A stretch of DNA of 64,000 nucleotides, taken from the NCBI RefSeq assembly GCF_014695385.1, contig NZ_JACJOD010000006.1:1-64000 (forward strand), read 5' to 3'. Position 1 is the stretch's first letter. The number at the start of each line of letters is the position of its first letter. A model generated the notes under the pieces. The model searched no databases. It was not told the DNA's origin and worked only from the letters and a program-made list of their open reading frames with translations. The position numbers were made by a program, and so were the translations under genes. Positions 8,277 to 25,095 of this stretch are shown piece after piece. The DNA comes from Trichocoleus sp. FACHB-46. Its GTDB lineage: Bacteria; Cyanobacteriota; Cyanobacteriia; FACHB-46.

Positions 8277-9908
8277 CTACAGGGGTTTCTCTTCAACCTG
8301 AGTTAAGTTTTCTGCTAGCAGGGGAGCAAGTTTGCTATTTAGGCGACCTGCCCGCACGAATTCTGCATAGGTATCGGCTTCGATCGCTGTTAGTTCTTCC
8401 CATAGAAGCTCATGGCTAAAATCGCGCAGATCCGGATACTCATTGTGGAGTTGGTCAATCTCACTCTGCAAATCGCTGAGCTGACCTTTGACCAGTGCAG
8501 TTTGATAGCGGTAAAATTCCGGGTCAATTTCGGGGCGATCGCTTTGCGTCAGGTGTTTTTTGACTCGATTAATCGCCACCCAACGAGCGATCGTTTCTAC
8601 ATATTTTTGCTGGATGGGTTGAGCGCTTAGGAGTCCTAGACGCTCTAGCAACGGTTTGACCGTGAGTCCTTGAACTAAGAGGGTGAATAGAACTGTGCCA
8701 AAGACGGTGGCAATGATTTCTTCTCGCTCTCCCAAAATTGTGGGCACGCTCAGGGCCAGGGCAATGGAAACCGAACCCCGCAACCCGCCCCACCACAACA
8801 CCGTCTGATCCGGTAAGGAAATGCCAGATTTAGCTACCCCATTACTCAGGGCACCTAAAGCATAGATGGCGATCGCACGGGAGAGGAGCATGGCCCCAAT
8901 CGTGATGGCGATCGTGCCTAGGTTCGCACCGAGCACCGAAAAATGAATTTGATCACCAATCAGCAAGAACACGATTGAGTTGACGAAAAAAGCTAAGAAG
9001 TCCCAAAACTCAGTCACTACCAGCCGAGTTCGAGGACTCATGCCAATCCGAGAGCCGATGTTGCCCAAAATGATGCCAGTCGTGACGACGCCGATCACAC
9101 CAGAACCACCCAAGTCTTCGGTAATCAAGTAGGTACCGTAGGCTGAAACAAGGGTCAGAGATTGCTCCACCAAGGGTAAATCAAACCGCTGGGTCAGATA
9201 GGAAATACCAAAGCCAATCAGACAGCCCACGCCAATCCCAATCCCAACCACCCCAATTAAACTGGCGAGCAGAGCTGAGATGTCCCAGTTGCTAGTGCCG
9301 AGGGGCAGGCCCACCAGAAACCCAAAGGCAACCACAGCCATGCCATCGTTAAATAGACTTTCGCCTTCCATCAAGGTGGTCAACCGTTTACCTGCGCCTA
9401 GCTCTCGAAACAAAGCAATTACAGACACCGGATCAGTGGCGGATAAGCTAGCCCCGACTAGCAGGGCTGTGGTCAAGGAGACACCTCCTAAGTAGATCAA
9501 CCCCCAAGCGACCCCAGCGATCGAAATCACCACCCCTAGGACTGCAAATAAGCAAATCGGGAGCAAGTCTTGCTTGAGGTTAAACCACTTGATATTCCAA
9601 GCTGCTTCAAATAACAGCGGTGGTAAAAAGATAGACAGAATTAGCTCTGGCGAAAGATTCACTAAGCGAATATCCATAAACGCCAGCCCTAGCCCCACAA
9701 TCACCAACAGCAGCGTGTAGGGAATTTGGCGAAACCAACTAATGATCCGGGGTAGGGTGGCCACACTTAAGGAAACAGAGAGCACCAAGAGAAACTGCTT
9801 GAGATTTTGCTCAATGGCTACTCCCTCTGTTACTGCTTCTATAGCCATAGTTACGAAGAATGAACAACAAATCACAATCGTGACTTGCTGCCATAGTGAC
9901 ATACTCAC
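8277..9908 (-). CDS. NhaP-type Na+/H+ antiporter (CPA1 family)
   Basis: 543 residues with about 12 hydrophobic segments. It carries the CPA1 marks SATDPVS (156-162) and ESLFNDG (183-189) with the acidic ion-binding residues, followed by a soluble tail of about 110 residues rich in charged helix. Length and tail resemble cyanobacterial NhaS1/NhaP antiporters, which exchange sodium for protons at the cytoplasmic membrane for salt and pH tolerance. I cannot decide which numbered NhaS paralogue this is. It transcribes leftward, away from the small-gene island at 10 kb. Confidence 0.9.
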   Translation of the reverse strand: MSMSLWQQVTIVICCSFFVTMAIEAVTEGVAIEQNLKQFLLVLSVSLSVATLPRIISWFRQIPYTLLLVIVGLGLAFMDIRLVNLSPELILSIFLPPLLFEAAWNIKWFNLKQDLLPICLFAVLGVVISIAGVAWGLIYLGGVSLTTALLVGASLSATDPVSVIALFRELGAGKRLTTLMEGESLFNDGMAVVAFGFLVGLPLGTSNWDISALLASLIGVVGIGIGVGCLIGFGISYLTQRFDLPLVEQSLTLVSAYGTYLITEDLGGSGVIGVVTTGIILGNIGSRIGMSPRTRLVVTEFWDFLAFFVNSIVFLLIGDQIHFSVLGANLGTIAITIGAMLLSRAIAIYALGALSNGVAKSGISLPDQTVLWWGGLRGSVSIALALSVPTILGEREEIIATVFGTVLFTLLVQGLTVKPLLERLGLLSAQPIQQKYVETIARWVAINRVKKHLTQSDRPEIDPEFYRYQTALVKGQLSDLQSEIDQLHNEYPDLRDFSHELLWEELTAIEADTYAEFVRAGRLNSKLAPLLAENLTQVEEKPL

Positions 9909-10018
9909 CCCTCAAGCTATCTAGATGCTATTGGATTGAACCAAGACGCTGTTAGTACAGAAATACTATAATGGTATCGAAGGCTAGCTCCTCAGTTTTG
10001 GTCGCAAAAATGGTCGAT

Positions 10019-10060
10019 TTTTCAGCGCTTTTTCAGCGCTTTCAGGGTGGTTATTACCCT
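10019..10060. promoter_or_regulatory. Tandem 11-bp repeats and inverted repeat, possible operator
   Basis: TTTTCAGCGCT occurs twice back to back (10019-10029, 10030-10040), exactly one helical turn apart, followed by a degenerate third start. Immediately after is AGGGT, seven bases, ACCCT (10044-10060). The site lies between the divergent antiporter gene and the first gene of the small-gene island, so it may bind a regulator of either. Confidence 0.45.
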
Positions 10061-10089
10061 AAAATACGACCTCTACATAGGCTCTATAT

Positions 10090-10133
10090 GTAGTGCTTAT
10101 AAACTACACTAGATCTAGTGAGATTCAAGTTCT
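10090..10133 (+). promoter_or_regulatory. Shared promoter/leader element, copy 1
   Basis: A 44-base element: GTAGTG, A/T-rich spacer, a TACACT -10-like box, the perfect palindrome CACTAGATCTAGTG (10107-10120), then AGATTCAAGTTCT. It aligns almost base for base with copy 2 (10556-10597), differing at six positions and one 2-base gap. Only four bases separate it from the ATG of the next gene. Confidence 0.7.
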
Positions 10134-10137
10134 AAAT

Positions 10138-10521
10138 ATGCAGATCGGTCGCTTTTTTTCGTTACAGCAAGGTCGCGTCGGTCAGTACCTATCACCCCGA
10201 GTTTTGGTCGTACGCAGCCCCTTTCAGAAGTTACCTAAATCGGGTGGACCTGTCGCAGCTTGCTACTTTGGTTTCGACAAGATGAGTAAGGCTCAAGCTT
10301 TCACTAAGTACCTGTCTGGTCTGGGTTACACCTATCAGCTCCGGCGCGGAAAGATGCTGTCTCAGTACGCCTATGAGATCGCTTTGCGGGAGCATACTGA
10401 CCTCGCAAAGGTCTTAGCCTATTGGGATCGGATGGACGTAAAACGGCCCAATTTGAGCGCTGGCCAAGCCAATATTCGCGATCGCGCCTTGCAAGTTGCA
10501 CCTCCAGTTTTGGCTGCTTAA
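10138..10521 (+). CDS. Hypothetical protein, first gene of the shared-leader cluster
   Basis: 127 residues from the ATG at 10138. A GTG at 10093 in frame is rejected because the region before the ATG is the shared leader element and not coding. There is no Shine-Dalgarno sequence; the ATG lies four bases after ATTCAAGTTCT. The protein is basic and compact, with RFFSLQQGRVGQYLSPRV at the start, a middle FGFDKMSKAQAFTKYLSGLG, and a helical Ala-rich end. No signal peptide, membrane segment or catalytic motif is visible and I do not recognise a family. The mix of a basic N-terminal beta-like region and helices would suit a small nucleic-acid-binding protein, but that is only a guess. Confidence 0.75.
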   Translation: MQIGRFFSLQQGRVGQYLSPRVLVVRSPFQKLPKSGGPVAACYFGFDKMSKAQAFTKYLSGLGYTYQLRRGKMLSQYAYEIALREHTDLAKVLAYWDRMDVKRPNLSAGQANIRDRALQVAPPVLAA

Positions 10522-10555
10522 GCAGCACGGAACGGGCCTGTTTTTCCTTGAAAAT

Positions 10556-10597
10556 GTGGTGGTAATACACTACAATAAATATAGTGATTCAAGTTCT
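10556..10597 (+). promoter_or_regulatory. Shared promoter/leader element, copy 2
   Basis: The same architecture as copy 1: GTGGTG, a TACAAT -10-like box at 10571-10576, TAGTG, then ATTCAAGTTCT ending six bases before the next ATG. CACTA and TAGTG form an inverted repeat with a nine-base spacer. Confidence 0.7.
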
Positions 10598-10603
10598 TGC
10601 GCC

Positions 10604-10882
10604 ATGACTAAGCACTACATTCTCAGCGTGGACCCAACTGCCAAATATGACTGGGACCGTTGCACCCTCCGCGACCCCATCACCGCCAATCGCCCTGACC
10701 TGGCTGAGCTAATTGCCGAGGCAGTCGGCGAAGCGGCTGGCTCTTATTTGGTATCGGTCAATATTGAAGTTCAGGTATTGGAGCAGACCGCACCGAATGC
10801 TCAAACGAAGCGTCTGCTTCCCAGCGATCTGGATGCGGCAGTGCGATCGCAGCGGGTGCAGTTAGAGGAACTAGCTGCGTAA
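10604..10882 (+). CDS. Hypothetical protein, second gene of the shared-leader cluster
   Basis: 92 residues from ATG 10604. Again there is no Shine-Dalgarno sequence, and the ATG sits six bases after the shared motif, which fixes this start over longer upstream in-frame codons. The protein is acidic, begins MTKHYILSVDPTAKYDWDRC, and continues with alternating helix- and strand-like segments. No signal, membrane segment or known motif is seen and the family is unknown to me. Codon use looks like that of neighbouring chromosomal genes (HIP1 in the coding end), so it is not obviously recent foreign DNA. Confidence 0.75.
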   Translation: MTKHYILSVDPTAKYDWDRCTLRDPITANRPDLAELIAEAVGEAAGSYLVSVNIEVQVLEQTAPNAQTKRLLPSDLDAAVRSQRVQLEELAA

Positions 10883-10955
10883 TTTAGGCTGATGCCTATT
10901 GCTCTCCGGGCTGGGTTGCTGTTCTACTCAGCCTCCTATTGATTCCTGACCCTTA

Positions 10956-10967
10956 CATTCAAGTTCT
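10956..10967 (+). promoter_or_regulatory. Shared leader core, copy 3
   Basis: CATTCAAGTTCT recurs 23 bases before the next ATG. The upstream palindromic part seen in copies 1, 2 and 4 is absent here. The following leader carries a weak TAGGGAAGA ribosome site. Confidence 0.6.
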
Positions 10968-10990
10968 TAGTTTGCTTAGGGAAGATATTT

Positions 10991-11365
10991 ATGAAATTCA
11001 GCATCAGCCAGTATCCTGCCGCGATCGCTCAAGCTGCTCAAGCCGTGAATGAGCTGGAGCACCAAATTGGGGAAGCCCGCCAGCATATTGCTCGCTTAGA
11101 AGGCAATGCTGATATGGTCGTGGCGTTTGAAACCAACCTAAAGAATGACAATCAGCGTAAGGCTCGCCGTTTTGAAGTCCTGCAAGTAAATCCTGAGTAT
11201 CAGCATGCGATGGATGCCCTGCTGCGCCTGAGCACCGAGAAATCTAACGCTTTGGCTCATCTAGAGTATCTGCGCAATGAGTTTAGCGTCGCCAAGCTGG
11301 AAACTCGTCTCGCGATCGCTCAGCAGCTCACTGGCTTGGAAACTCGCGAGTTTGTTGGGCTTTAG
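10991..11365 (+). CDS. Small coiled-coil hypothetical protein
   Basis: 124 residues, almost entirely helical by composition. Heptad-like repeats run through 15-55 (AQAVNELEHQIGEARQHIAR) and again 80-118. It has no signal, membrane segment, Cys or His cluster. It would suit a self-associating scaffold or adaptor. ATG 10991 with TAGGGAAGA upstream. A clear intrinsic terminator follows, so it ends its own transcript. Family unknown. Confidence 0.75.
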   Translation: MKFSISQYPAAIAQAAQAVNELEHQIGEARQHIARLEGNADMVVAFETNLKNDNQRKARRFEVLQVNPEYQHAMDALLRLSTEKSNALAHLEYLRNEFSVAKLETRLAIAQQLTGLETREFVGL

Positions 11366-11419
11366 TCACTTAACCGTTCAGCTTCTCTGCTCTCAAATCT
11401 GTTTTTGAGAGAAATGTAG

Positions 11420-11456
11420 TGGCAGTAGGACCCTTGTCCTGCTGCTTTTTTCTTTG
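11420..11456 (+). terminator. Intrinsic terminator after the coiled-coil gene
   Basis: GCAGTAGGAC and GTCCTGCTGC pair with one G-T pair around a CCTT loop, followed by TTTTTTCTTT. This splits the island into separate transcripts and implies a fresh promoter for the gene at 11588. Confidence 0.88.
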
Positions 11457-11538
11457 AAATCAAGCGGTATTTCTACACTTAATTACTTATAGAAATAAAT
11501 AGAAATAAAAAAGTGGCCCCCGCCGCGAGGTGAAGGTC

Positions 11539-11557
11539 ACTTAGTGATTCAAGTTCT
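11539..11557 (+). promoter_or_regulatory. Shared promoter/leader element, copy 4
   Basis: TCACT-T-AGTGA (11539-11549, perfect inverted repeat) runs directly into ATTCAAGTTCT, as in copies 1 and 2. It lies 30 bases before the next ATG, which also has a strong GAAGGAGG ribosome site. Confidence 0.68.
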
Positions 11558-11587
11558 TAATTTAAGCCTAGTAGATGAAGGAGGTTT

Positions 11588-11992
11588 ATGCAAGAAAATG
11601 TGGTGGAATTAATTCGAGAGCTGATGAAAACTCAGCAGATGAGTATTCGCAAAATTTCCGCGCGAATTGCTAAAGAGCATGGAGGCAGTGCTTTAGGCTA
11701 TACTCAGCAAATTAATCGGATTCTGAATGATTCGGACTACGATCCTAATTTTTCTACCGTTCAAAAAGTGCTTTCTGCCCTCAATTGTTCCTTCTGGCAA
11801 TTGACGACTTCTCAGACAAATTTCGACTTTAAAGCGATAGAAGGGCGTTTAGATCACTTAGATACAGAGCTTGCAGATTTAAAGCTGACGGTGGACCAAC
11901 TCCGGGGATCTGTTGAAGGATTGGTGCAAGAATTACGCCTTAGCCAGCCTGAAGTAAAGCGGCCATCAGCTTCTATTCATTCGTCTAGTTAG
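11588..11992 (+). CDS. Putative helix-turn-helix protein with C-terminal coiled coil
   Basis: 134 residues. The front (about 5-75) reads like an XRE/Cro-type helix-turn-helix: ELMKTQQMSIRKISARIAKE, then a recognition-like helix TQQINRILNDSDYDPNFST and VQKVLSALNCSFWQL. The back (85-120) is a short coiled coil (GRLDHLDTELADLKLTVDQL). It may be a dimeric regulator. It is the only obvious DNA-binding candidate in the shared-leader island, so it is a good guess for the factor that reads the shared elements. Start ATG 11588 behind GAAGGAGG. The next gene follows after seven bases. Confidence 0.75.
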   Translation: MQENVVELIRELMKTQQMSIRKISARIAKEHGGSALGYTQQINRILNDSDYDPNFSTVQKVLSALNCSFWQLTTSQTNFDFKAIEGRLDHLDTELADLKLTVDQLRGSVEGLVQELRLSQPEVKRPSASIHSSS

Positions 11993-11999
11993 TTTGATT

Positions 12000-12377
12000 A
12001 TGGATACAATTCTTACGCCGACAGAAATTTCTGATTTTCGCGCTGAACTGAGCGATTATCCTCAAGCTTTAGTGGCTTTAGATGTGATTGAGGACTGTGA
12101 GGGGGATCTGGAGGATGCGGCGATCGCCCTAGCAATCCAGGTTGGGCAACAACCTACCACCTCTGAGGGTTGGATCACGAGTTTAGCGAAGCGCTGGCGG
12201 CCCAGGCTATGCCAGGCAGAATTACGAGCCGATTTGGTGGACAACCGCGTGGCGACTACCATCACACAGCTAGTCGAGACCAAAGCGTTACCTTGGGAAC
12301 TGGCAACTCTCGTGAGCATCTACGCCGCTAAAGCTGGAATTGACGATTTTTGTAAGCCGCTGGAAGAAAAACTGTAG
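12000..12377 (+). CDS. Conserved-looking hypothetical protein, partner of the HTH gene
   Basis: 125 residues from ATG 12000 (an in-frame TTG lies six bases earlier). It is an acidic, all-helical soluble protein with no motif I recognise. The first half (ALVALDVIEDCEGDLEDAAI) resembles a small helical-repeat fold and the second half carries WITSLAKRWRPRLCQAELR. It starts seven bases after the HTH gene, so the two are almost certainly one transcript. It ends four bases before the stop of the convergent panB. Confidence 0.75.
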   Translation: MDTILTPTEISDFRAELSDYPQALVALDVIEDCEGDLEDAAIALAIQVGQQPTTSEGWITSLAKRWRPRLCQAELRADLVDNRVATTITQLVETKALPWELATLVSIYAAKAGIDDFCKPLEEKL

Positions 12378-12381
12378 GCTT

Positions 12382-13164
12382 TTATGGTTTAGGCGGAAAC
12401 TCCTGCGATCGCACCTCACTGGCAAAGCCTTGCACTGCTTGGGTAATGCTCTCTCGTAAGTTGGCGTAGGTTTTAACGAAAGGAGGTTGCCAACTGGAAA
12501 GCCCTAGCAAATCCGCTGTAACGAGCACCTGACCGTCGCAGTGCGGGCCAGCACCAATGCCGATAGTAGGAATAGTGAGTTTCTGGGTGATTTGCTGAGC
12601 TAAATCAGCGGGTATATGTTCTAAGACGATCGCGAAGGCTCCCGCTTGTTCGAGGGCGATCGCTTCTGCCAAAATTCGTTCTTTGGCTTCTACGGATTTG
12701 CCTTGTTGACGGTAGCCAAGTTGATGGACTGACTGTGGGGTCAGGCCGACGTGCCCCATCACGGGGATGCCAACCTGCACTAAATGAGTGACGGTATCCG
12801 CCATCGCTGGGTATCCGCCTTCTAGTTTCACGGCTTGGGCACCTGTTTCTTTGAGGACTCGCCCTGCTGACTGGATGGCTTGTTGCCAACTCTCCTGATA
12901 GCTTAAAAATGGTAGGTCAACGACAATTAGTGCTTGTTTGACTCCACGGCGAACTGCTTTAGCATGGTGCAGCATTTCTTCGAGAGTAATGGGCAATGTG
13001 GTTTCGTAGCCTAGTGCCACCATTGCTAGGGAATCTCCAACGAGGAGAATATCGGCACCTGCTTGATCCAGAATTTGAGCGAATGCGTAGTCCCAAGCGG
13101 TAAGTACGACGATGGGACGACCTTGCTGTTTCCATTGGCTCAACTGCTGGATTTTGACTGTCAT
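12382..13164 (-). CDS. panB: 3-methyl-2-oxobutanoate hydroxymethyltransferase (ketopantoate synthase)
   Basis: 260 residues, normal length. It makes ketopantoate from alpha-ketoisovalerate and methylene-tetrahydrofolate in pantothenate/CoA synthesis. Landmarks are [17 protein letters not shown] (metal and substrate site), [29 protein letters not shown] and [15 protein letters not shown]. The C-terminus is short and variable. It is transcribed alone, convergent with the shared-leader island. Confidence 0.96.
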
Positions 13165-14811: not shown

Positions 14812-15609
14812 ATGTCTTCTGAGCCGAACACTAAAGCGATAATTAAGATAGAAGGGTTCAAAGCAAGAGCAGAAGAACTCAAGAAATTATCGCATCAACG
14901 ATATGGCCCCTCTTGGAAGAAATGGCATAGAGATGTTCAAGTTTTTCTAGAGCATACTTTTGGTGTTGGGTCTCGTCATATAGCTGATTTCAATAGCATC
15001 AGTTATTCGTTTAGCTTTGGCCCAGTTTCAGAGCAGGACGTTCAAAAGAAATGGATTGATAGTTTATCTATTGCCCAGGCAACTTTTGAATCGTTTGTAC
15101 ACGAAATAAACGAGTATGGCTTGCCAAAGACCCATCAAGATATTTCCGTTTCCACATTCGAAATCATGGAACGTTTATTAAAAAGATTTCATTTAGTTGC
15201 AAGACAGCTAAAAGAGAGGCATGGTGAACGTTCTACTCTTCAAATAGAAGATGAATATGATGTACAAGATCTTTTACACTCATTGCTAAAACTATATTTT
15301 GATGACATAAGGCCAGAAGAAGTATGTCCTAGCTATGCAGGTAGTAGCTCAAGAGTAGATTTCCTGCTGAAACCACAACGTGTAATGCTAGAAGTCAAAA
15401 AAACACGCAAGTCTTTAGAGGCTAAGGAAGTTGGAGAGCAATTAATTATTGATACCTCACGATACAGTGAGCATCCCGATGTTGATACATTAATCTGCTT
15501 CGTGTATGATCCAGAACTTCGTATTGGCAATCCTAAAGGACTTGCGGCAGATTTAGAGAGAAGAAGTCTGGAAAATCTTAATGTCAAAGTTTTGATTTTT
15601 CCAGAATAG
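14812..15609 (+). CDS. Predicted PD-(D/E)XK nuclease, stand-alone defence-type protein
   Basis: 265 residues. The C-terminal domain (about 145-265) carries SRVDFLL with Asp183, then MLEVKKT with Glu194 and Lys196, the spacing of a PD-(D/E)XK active site. It continues with GEQLIIDTSRYSEHP and CFVYDPELRIGNPKGLAADL, a pattern I associate with the DpnII/MboI-like restriction endonuclease C-terminal domain. The N-terminal 140 residues are helical and may give recognition or dimerisation. No methyltransferase is adjacent, so it is not an ordinary restriction-modification pair. The gene is visibly richer in A/T and AAA/TTA codons than its neighbours, a sign of transfer. Confidence 0.78.
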   Translation: MSSEPNTKAIIKIEGFKARAEELKKLSHQRYGPSWKKWHRDVQVFLEHTFGVGSRHIADFNSISYSFSFGPVSEQDVQKKWIDSLSIAQATFESFVHEINEYGLPKTHQDISVSTFEIMERLLKRFHLVARQLKERHGERSTLQIEDEYDVQDLLHSLLKLYFDDIRPEEVCPSYAGSSSRVDFLLKPQRVMLEVKKTRKSLEAKEVGEQLIIDTSRYSEHPDVDTLICFVYDPELRIGNPKGLAADLERRSLENLNVKVLIFPE

Positions 15610-24486: not shown

Positions 24487-25095
24487 ATGAACAGTTTAAT
24501 CAATGCCCCTGAAAGAACTGATCGATCCATTCAAGTTTTAGACCGACGACTAACCTCAAGATTAAAACCTGCTCTGTTGCAAGAAGCCATTGAAGGCTTT
24601 ATGGATGGCATTTTGCTCTTAACACCCGCTGGTGACTGGGTGCATGGCAATTCTTACGCCCGCCAAGTTTGTGGTCAGCTAACTCAGAACTTAACCCAAC
24701 CCCATCGTGCCCCTCAGCAAATTTGGCTGGTTTGTGAGGTTCTAGTGAAAAATCACCAACGAAGTAGCTCAGCCTTAGTTGTGGAGTCAGAAGTTACTAC
24801 GCCTAATTTCAATACTATTCGGGTGCGGGCTAGTTGGCTGAAGCCTGAGAACAGCGAATCTCCATTTGTATTAGTCACCCTTGAAGACCGGTATCAAGCG
24901 ATGCAAAATAAAGCGATCGCGGAAGTACAGCAATATCGTCTCACACCACGAGAAGCAGAAGTTTGGTTACTGTATCAAGACAACTATTCTTATAAAGAAA
25001 TTGCCACAAAGCTATACATCACAGTTAACACTGTGAAGCGGCATATGAAAAGTATTCATGCCAAAAGAAAGGGAGTTTTGGAAATAGAATCCTAG
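24487..25095 (+). CDS. LuxR-type transcriptional regulator with PAS-like front
   Basis: 202 residues. The C-terminal 50 (151-200) is a LuxR/GerE helix-turn-helix: RLTPREAEVWLLYQDNYSYKE, IATKLYITVNTVKRHMKSIHAK. The N-terminal part, EAIEGFMDGILLLTPAGDWVHGNSYARQVCGQL, reads as a PAS-like sensor domain (30-135). No phosphoacceptor receiver domain is present. Its target and signal are unknown. It lies convergent with the carboxysome operon, ending 33 bp from ccmO, but proximity does not prove it controls that operon. Confidence 0.85.
   Translation: MNSLINAPERTDRSIQVLDRRLTSRLKPALLQEAIEGFMDGILLLTPAGDWVHGNSYARQVCGQLTQNLTQPHRAPQQIWLVCEVLVKNHQRSSSALVVESEVTTPNFNTIRVRASWLKPENSESPFVLVTLEDRYQAMQNKAIAEVQQYRLTPREAEVWLLYQDNYSYKEIATKLYITVNTVKRHMKSIHAKRKGVLEIES

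Follow-up and report, generated by a model that had tools for sequence, protein, structure and literature searches.

A candidate minus-strand antisense RNA and its predicted target sites in the leaders of small genes of a filamentous cyanobacterium

The window analysed here, a stretch of 64,000 nucleotides from Trichocoleus sp. FACHB-46, carries five small genes, g1 to g5, whose coordinates are given together with those of the associated features (Table 1). No accepted match was obtained for g1, g2, g3 or g5 in Pfam, PHROG or NCBIfam, and the predicted folds of g1 and g2 revealed no confident structural relative. Like g2, g3 is widespread in filamentous cyanobacteria. Further along the window, positions 14812-15609 encode a protein with a strong match to the DpnII-MboI restriction-endonuclease domain (E 1.7e-53).

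Table 1. Features of the locus and of related leaders; the window genus is the genus from which the window derives.
Feature	Position	Strand	Remarks
Palindrome TGTAGTG-N6-AACTACA	10089..10108	+	over the g1 promoter
Predicted target site, g1 leader	10122..10133	+	window genus only; 12 bp plus flank, -18.9 to -20.3 kcal/mol
g1	10138..10521	+	127 aa, no family match; predicted sRNA target in the window genus
g2 promoter TTGAAA-17-TACAAT	10548..10576	+	only sigma-70-like site found by scan in 9900-12500
Palindrome TGTGGTG-N6-CACTACA	10555..10574	+	over the g2 promoter
Predicted core target site TAGTGATTCAAGTTCT, g2 leader	10582..10597	+	16 bp of perfect complementarity to the sRNA, -23.0 kcal/mol
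g2	10604..10882	+	92 aa, no family match; widespread in filamentous cyanobacteria; predicted core sRNA target
Predicted target site, g3 leader	10957..10967	+	window genus only; 11 bp, -13.5 to -14.2 kcal/mol; 23 nt before ATG
g3	10991..11365	+	124 aa, probably coiled coil; predicted sRNA target in the window genus
g3 intrinsic terminator	about 11421..11456	+	separates g3 from the sRNA/g4 region
Predicted sRNA 5'-AGAACUUGAAUCACUAAGUGACCUUCACCUCGCGGCGGGGGCCACUUUUUU-3'	11507..11557	-	~51 nt; unpaired 5' seed, intrinsic terminator hairpin, U6
sRNA seed AGAACUUGAAUC	11546..11557	-	copy 4 read on the other strand; most conserved block of the RNA
sRNA -10 element TAGGCT	11565..11570	-	7-9 nt before the seed
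sRNA -35 element TTGCAT	11588..11593	-	reverse complement of the g4 start ATGCAA; 17-nt spacer to -10
g4	11588..11992	+	HTH (XRE/Cro-like) protein, coiled-coil tail; start overlaps the predicted sRNA promoter
g5	12000-12377		no accepted family match
Predicted T5/T6 target leaders	L231 (reverse strand); L232 5456, 9210; L233 5177, 8221		window genus

The window contains four perfect copies of the motif ATTCAAGTTCT and no others; they lie on the plus strand at 10123, 10587, 10957 and 11547, as the sequence-only reading of this DNA had stated, and the only match with a single mismatch is at 24529. The whole genome of 6.56 Mb contains 11 copies, compared to three of a reversed control pattern; the seven copies outside the locus are isolated and scattered, most of them lack a leader-like context, and one stands before another gene (T5, see below). 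Two congeners, with about 87% identity over the region, carry all four copies unchanged. Four copies within 1.4 kb are far beyond chance, and the counts together with the conservation in congeners rule out a chance origin of the repeats. Copies 1 and 2 had been described as aligning over about 42 bases with six differences; the alignment obtained here, with 46 columns, seven mismatches and a 2-nt gap, is slightly poorer. A CACT...AGTG inverted repeat was indeed found at copies 1, 2 and 4, but its loops differ (4, 9 and 1 nt), and the left arm at copy 4 forms the end of a far larger hairpin. Genera other than the window genus do not conserve the repeat, which rules out this dyad as an operator. 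Two possible origins of the motif were also discarded. GATTCAAGTTCT resembles the T-loop of a tRNA T-arm, but no tRNA-like fold surrounds the copies, and the copies of relatives keep only the motif. An IS200/IS605 end was considered in view of the TnpB insertion that separates g2 from copy 3 in the congener G001, but in other genomes the motif occurs without an insertion. The inserted TnpB-type (IS200/IS605-like) transposase gene lies at 2553-3764 of L095, and the four copies are intact in that genome.

On the minus strand, copy 4 looks like the 5' end of a compact and previously undescribed small-RNA gene and not like an ordinary leader. The predicted transcription start falls at AGAACUUGAAUC, and the RNA would extend from AGAACUUG, give or take 1-2 nt, to the U-tract. 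An independent terminator scan gave a minus-strand call at 11530-11518, the T-run being present only on that side. The intergenic region holds both a predicted promoter of its own for this RNA and an intrinsic terminator. In all 19 sequences of the set described below, a hairpin with a U5-U8 tract is found together with a TANNCT -10 box located 7-9 nt before the seed AGAACUUGAAU, with small departures from the box in G094 and G022. Among the 13 distinct sequences, T1, A2, C5 and T6 of the -10 box are invariant or nearly so while neighbouring positions vary, and in the alignment of the 19 the conserved columns are these four positions, the seed and the U-tract, whereas the spacers vary. The spacing between -35 and -10 elements amounts to 17-18 nt in the sRNA loci measured. 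Conservation of the -35 element argues only weakly for a promoter when taken by itself, since this element coincides with the g4 start codon and its conservation is therefore partly coding; TTGCCG persists at the same place in G104, a genome that lacks g4. The seed is unpaired in the predicted folds of nearly all 19 sequences. When the Rfam 15 covariance models were run against the region, no family was detected, the only hit being a chance match to mir-96 (E 0.3, far below the gathering score), and the papers searched contained no published record of the seed.

An initial covariance model (R1), which worked but described the plus strand, was replaced by a minus-strand model (R2). The 19-sequence set goes back to a covariance search with the copy-4 region as it occurs in G104 (L028), enlarged by searches for g4. 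Of 390 cyanobacterial genomes, 19 from three families gave an R2 match to the sRNA gene at E<=1.5e-10, with one main locus each, and a gap separates these from the next matches at E 3e-4. A weak covariance match in G129 was dismissed as a chance terminator. The stem covaries: 10 cells are changed on both sides, a value reached by none of 500 shuffles, and the covariation score of 0.308 compares with at most 0.175 when the stem is slid. In G104, g4 has been lost, yet the copy 4 motif, the preceding hairpin, the -10 and -35 elements and the terminator remain. In G035 (L013; Myxacorys californica, judging by contig identity), g1-g3 lie on one contig and the unit of sRNA, g4 and g5 on another, and pairing between the sRNA and g2 would therefore be in trans. 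In this genome, which already has the main copy, contig C53 contains at 522-586 of L329 a second and weaker sRNA-like sequence (31.8 bits) with AACUUGAAUUAAUG, a hairpin and UUUU, possibly a paralogue or a chance match. In G094 (L131, g4 leader), the seed is degenerate (AAAACUCGAACC) while the hairpin and the g2 site are intact, and the sRNA is possibly decaying there.

The most extensive complementarity to the predicted RNA is found in the g2 leader. When the leaders of the 76 ORFs of the window were ranked by pairing with the sRNA, g2 came first, g1 second and g3 fifth. From the position of the g2 promoter, g2 transcription would start at about 10583, so the target site, 6 nt before the start codon, fills most of a leader of about 20 nt. 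The repeat had been presented as a promoter/leader element; it is a real conserved leader element, but a promoter element is ruled out by its position beside the ATG, at the predicted g2 start site or downstream of it. The site is also present before g2 in other sRNA-carrying genera wherever the g2 start is available, with a complementarity of 12-14 bp in most other genomes, often including a G-U pair where the target reads GATTCAGGTTCT. Predicted pairing between seed and g2 leader reached -14 to -23 kcal/mol in every genome tested, with the exception of G094, which is also the exception to the rule that a conserved unpaired seed is complementary to the translation-initiation regions of its targets.

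Cognate pairs of sRNA and g2 leader scored better than swapped pairs (p about 0.006 for nine representative genomes, one per genus or subgroup, shared ancestry being uncorrected), an advantage owed mainly to the window genus and G022. In the latter, AGUUC in the target faces GAAUU in the sRNA, which amounts to a compensatory change from G-C to A-U. Within family f16, ATTCARGTTCT precedes g2 in 13 of the 14 genomes with the sRNA and in 2 of the 16 without it (Fisher 2e-5, again uncorrected for shared ancestry); in G148 and G189 the g2 site is retained although no sRNA was detectable. The g2 leaders of clades without the sRNA still bear looser ATTCAAG variants, and part of the motif may therefore serve translation itself.

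The sites before g1, g3 and two distant genes are confined to the window genus. Outside it, the motif is missing from the leaders of g1 and g3, and the expectation that the motif accompanies these genes in relatives was borne out for g2, before whose orthologue it stands in nearly all sRNA-carrying genomes, but failed for the orthologues of g1 and g3. A survey of 16 genomes for further targets showed that most genome-wide GATTCARGTTCT sites lie inside genes, that GATTCAGGTTCT is also part of an apparent tRNA gene recurring across genomes, and that a few isolated leader matches occur in single genomes. Most of the extra targets suggested by these searches were dropped, and only T5 and T6, both in the window genus, had the appearance of genuine conserved leaders. 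The motif precedes T5, which encodes a coiled-coil protein, in each of the three window-genus genomes and T6 (MQPIRQGDVILIPV..., beside a DUF6745 protein) in two of them; it is absent from the T5 orthologues of other genera. T6 (the RQGDV... protein) looks broken in G001, where ATGTAA comes after the leader at 9210. Because the motif of g1, g3 and T5 is absent outside the genus, the pair of sRNA and g2 is most likely ancestral, with g1, g3, T5 and T6 added in the window genus. Target gain would thus be visible, from one target in most genera to three to five in the window genus, as would the consequences of RNA loss, the motif decaying once the sRNA is gone.

The reading that we favour, with a probability of about 0.8, is that copies 1-3 are target sites and copy 4 is the gene of a trans-acting antisense sRNA that represses translation. 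It draws on features observed directly in the genomes, namely the anatomy of promoter, seed and terminator, its conservation, the covariation of the stem, the complementarity and the co-occurrence of RNA and site; transcription of the RNA, its pairing in vivo and a repressive effect are what we infer from them. According to this proposal, the g3-g4 intergenic region would encode, on the minus strand, an RNA of about 51 nt, whose single-stranded 5' end AGAACUUGAAUC(ACUA) would pair with the complementary motif in the short g2 leader and, in the window genus, also with the leaders of g1, g3 and the distant genes T5 and T6. The duplex would cover the ribosome landing site and prevent 30S binding, so that the most likely outcome is a block of translation, with the mRNA being exposed to decay. 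Copy 4 would in addition be cis-antisense to any g4 leader transcribed through it. The same pairing could alternatively lead to activation or let the RNA act as a sponge. The four copies had been taken for equivalent leaders; copies 1-3 fit as predicted target sites, whereas copy 4, as the predicted sRNA gene, is not equivalent to them. The view that the genes form a coordinated unit holds, since the conserved leader repeat ties them into one regulatory unit, and this filamentous cyanobacterium probably controls a set of small genes of unknown function via one tiny RNA. A more far-reaching proposal, which we consider rather doubtful, is that an RNA of about 51 nt with its seed at the extreme 5' end is built into the very module that it controls, has recruited at least four further leaders in the window genus (those of g1, g3, T5 and T6) through the gain of target sites and, its promoter running through the HTH start codon, forms with the HTH protein an RNA/protein switch in which HTH expression and sRNA synthesis antagonise each other.

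Control by the helix-turn-helix protein encoded at 11588 had been suggested for the unit, and the motif could accordingly be bound, as DNA or as RNA, by a protein such as g4 that co-regulates these genes. Four exact copies near gene starts, the adjacent HTH gene and the promoter palindrome common to copies 1 and 2 would suit such a site. However, the motif lies in transcribed leaders at a variable distance from the start codon, copy 4 comes with a full minus-strand promoter, a terminator and a covarying stem, and the AGTG dyad is not conserved. The G-C to A-U change between seed and target in G022 fits base pairing and not a protein site. Moreover, the site is not tied to the HTH gene: G104 keeps both the g2 site and an intact copy 4 element, promoter and terminator included, without g4. 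Control by the HTH protein thus found no direct support, the predicted partner being an RNA, and we regard a protein site as improbable.

Slightly less probable still is a translation-initiation element, either an enhancer or a substitute for a Shine-Dalgarno sequence, that spread by duplication and needs no trans factor. It would account for the position of the motif 4-6 nt before the ATG of g1 and g2, neither of which has a clear Shine-Dalgarno sequence, and for the ATTCAAGG(G)TT variants before g2 in Nostoc and others. In contrast, g3 and g4 have purine-rich sites of their own, with the motif 23-30 nt off, and the promoter, hairpin and T-run of copy 4 as well as the disappearance of the exact motif from genomes that lack the sRNA would be left unexplained. 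A minus-strand RNA acting only in cis on g4, the matches at g1-g3 being functionless recombined leader copies, would agree with the overlap between this RNA and the region where a g4 leader would be, and with the joint retention of sRNA and g4 in most relatives. We consider it the least probable of these explanations, as different genera retain the g2 site along with the sRNA, G-U and compensatory changes included, and G104 has both sRNA and g2 site without g4.

To our knowledge, few trans-acting sRNAs of cyanobacteria have been described, most of them from a few unicellular models. Yfr1 of cyanobacteria is an RNA of 54-69 nt with an unpaired stretch that includes an ultraconserved sequence of 11 nt, a 3' hairpin and a U-tail (PMC2190773). 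The predicted sRNA resembles Yfr1 in being very short, in its unpaired conserved stretch, in its 3' hairpin and U-tail and in its single intergenic gene (PMC2190773). In Yfr1, however, a 5' stem-loop precedes the unpaired stretch with ACUCCUCACAC, whereas the predicted sRNA has AGAACUUGAAU as its conserved stretch, placed as a seed at the very 5' end, and a 3' hairpin only. With the defining undecamer and the 5' hairpin missing, the predicted sRNA is not Yfr1. PsrR1 and IsaR1 of Synechocystis are likewise trans-encoded, and PsrR1 pairs with the ribosome-binding regions of several mRNAs, a type of action that we propose for the sRNA by analogy; they differ in sequence, in their greater length (131 and 68 nt) and in their photosynthesis and iron targets, in contrast to the small unknown genes beside the sRNA here (PMC6202907). 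The antisense RNA of Tn10 (about 70 nt, pOUT promoter) is short and prevents translation of a neighbouring gene, as proposed here (PMC6202907). Unlike in Tn10, about 1 kb separates the sRNA gene from its main target g2, which in G035 is on a different contig, and pairing would be in trans through a seed of 12-16 nt. Since its gene and its core target are clear and its history of target changes can be seen, the system offers a natural case for the growth of an sRNA regulon, and it points to a common function for widespread unnamed cyanobacterial proteins.

The promoters of g1 and g2 have in common the palindrome TGTAGTG-N6-CACTACA, which overlaps the -10 element; these are the only two sites in the window with at most one mismatch. 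The dyad GTAGT-N8-ACTAC is conserved before g1 in other genera. The palindrome is probably a second element, of protein type, and would be a better candidate for a protein operator than the motif. There is no need to assume g4 as its ligand, since the palindrome is also present in L084/G141, a genome devoid of g4. Many relatives (L021, L028, L060-L069 and others) carry AGTAC..GTACT boxes beside the g2 -10 element, which the window genus lacks; these boxes resemble what we take to be the cyanobacterial LexA box.
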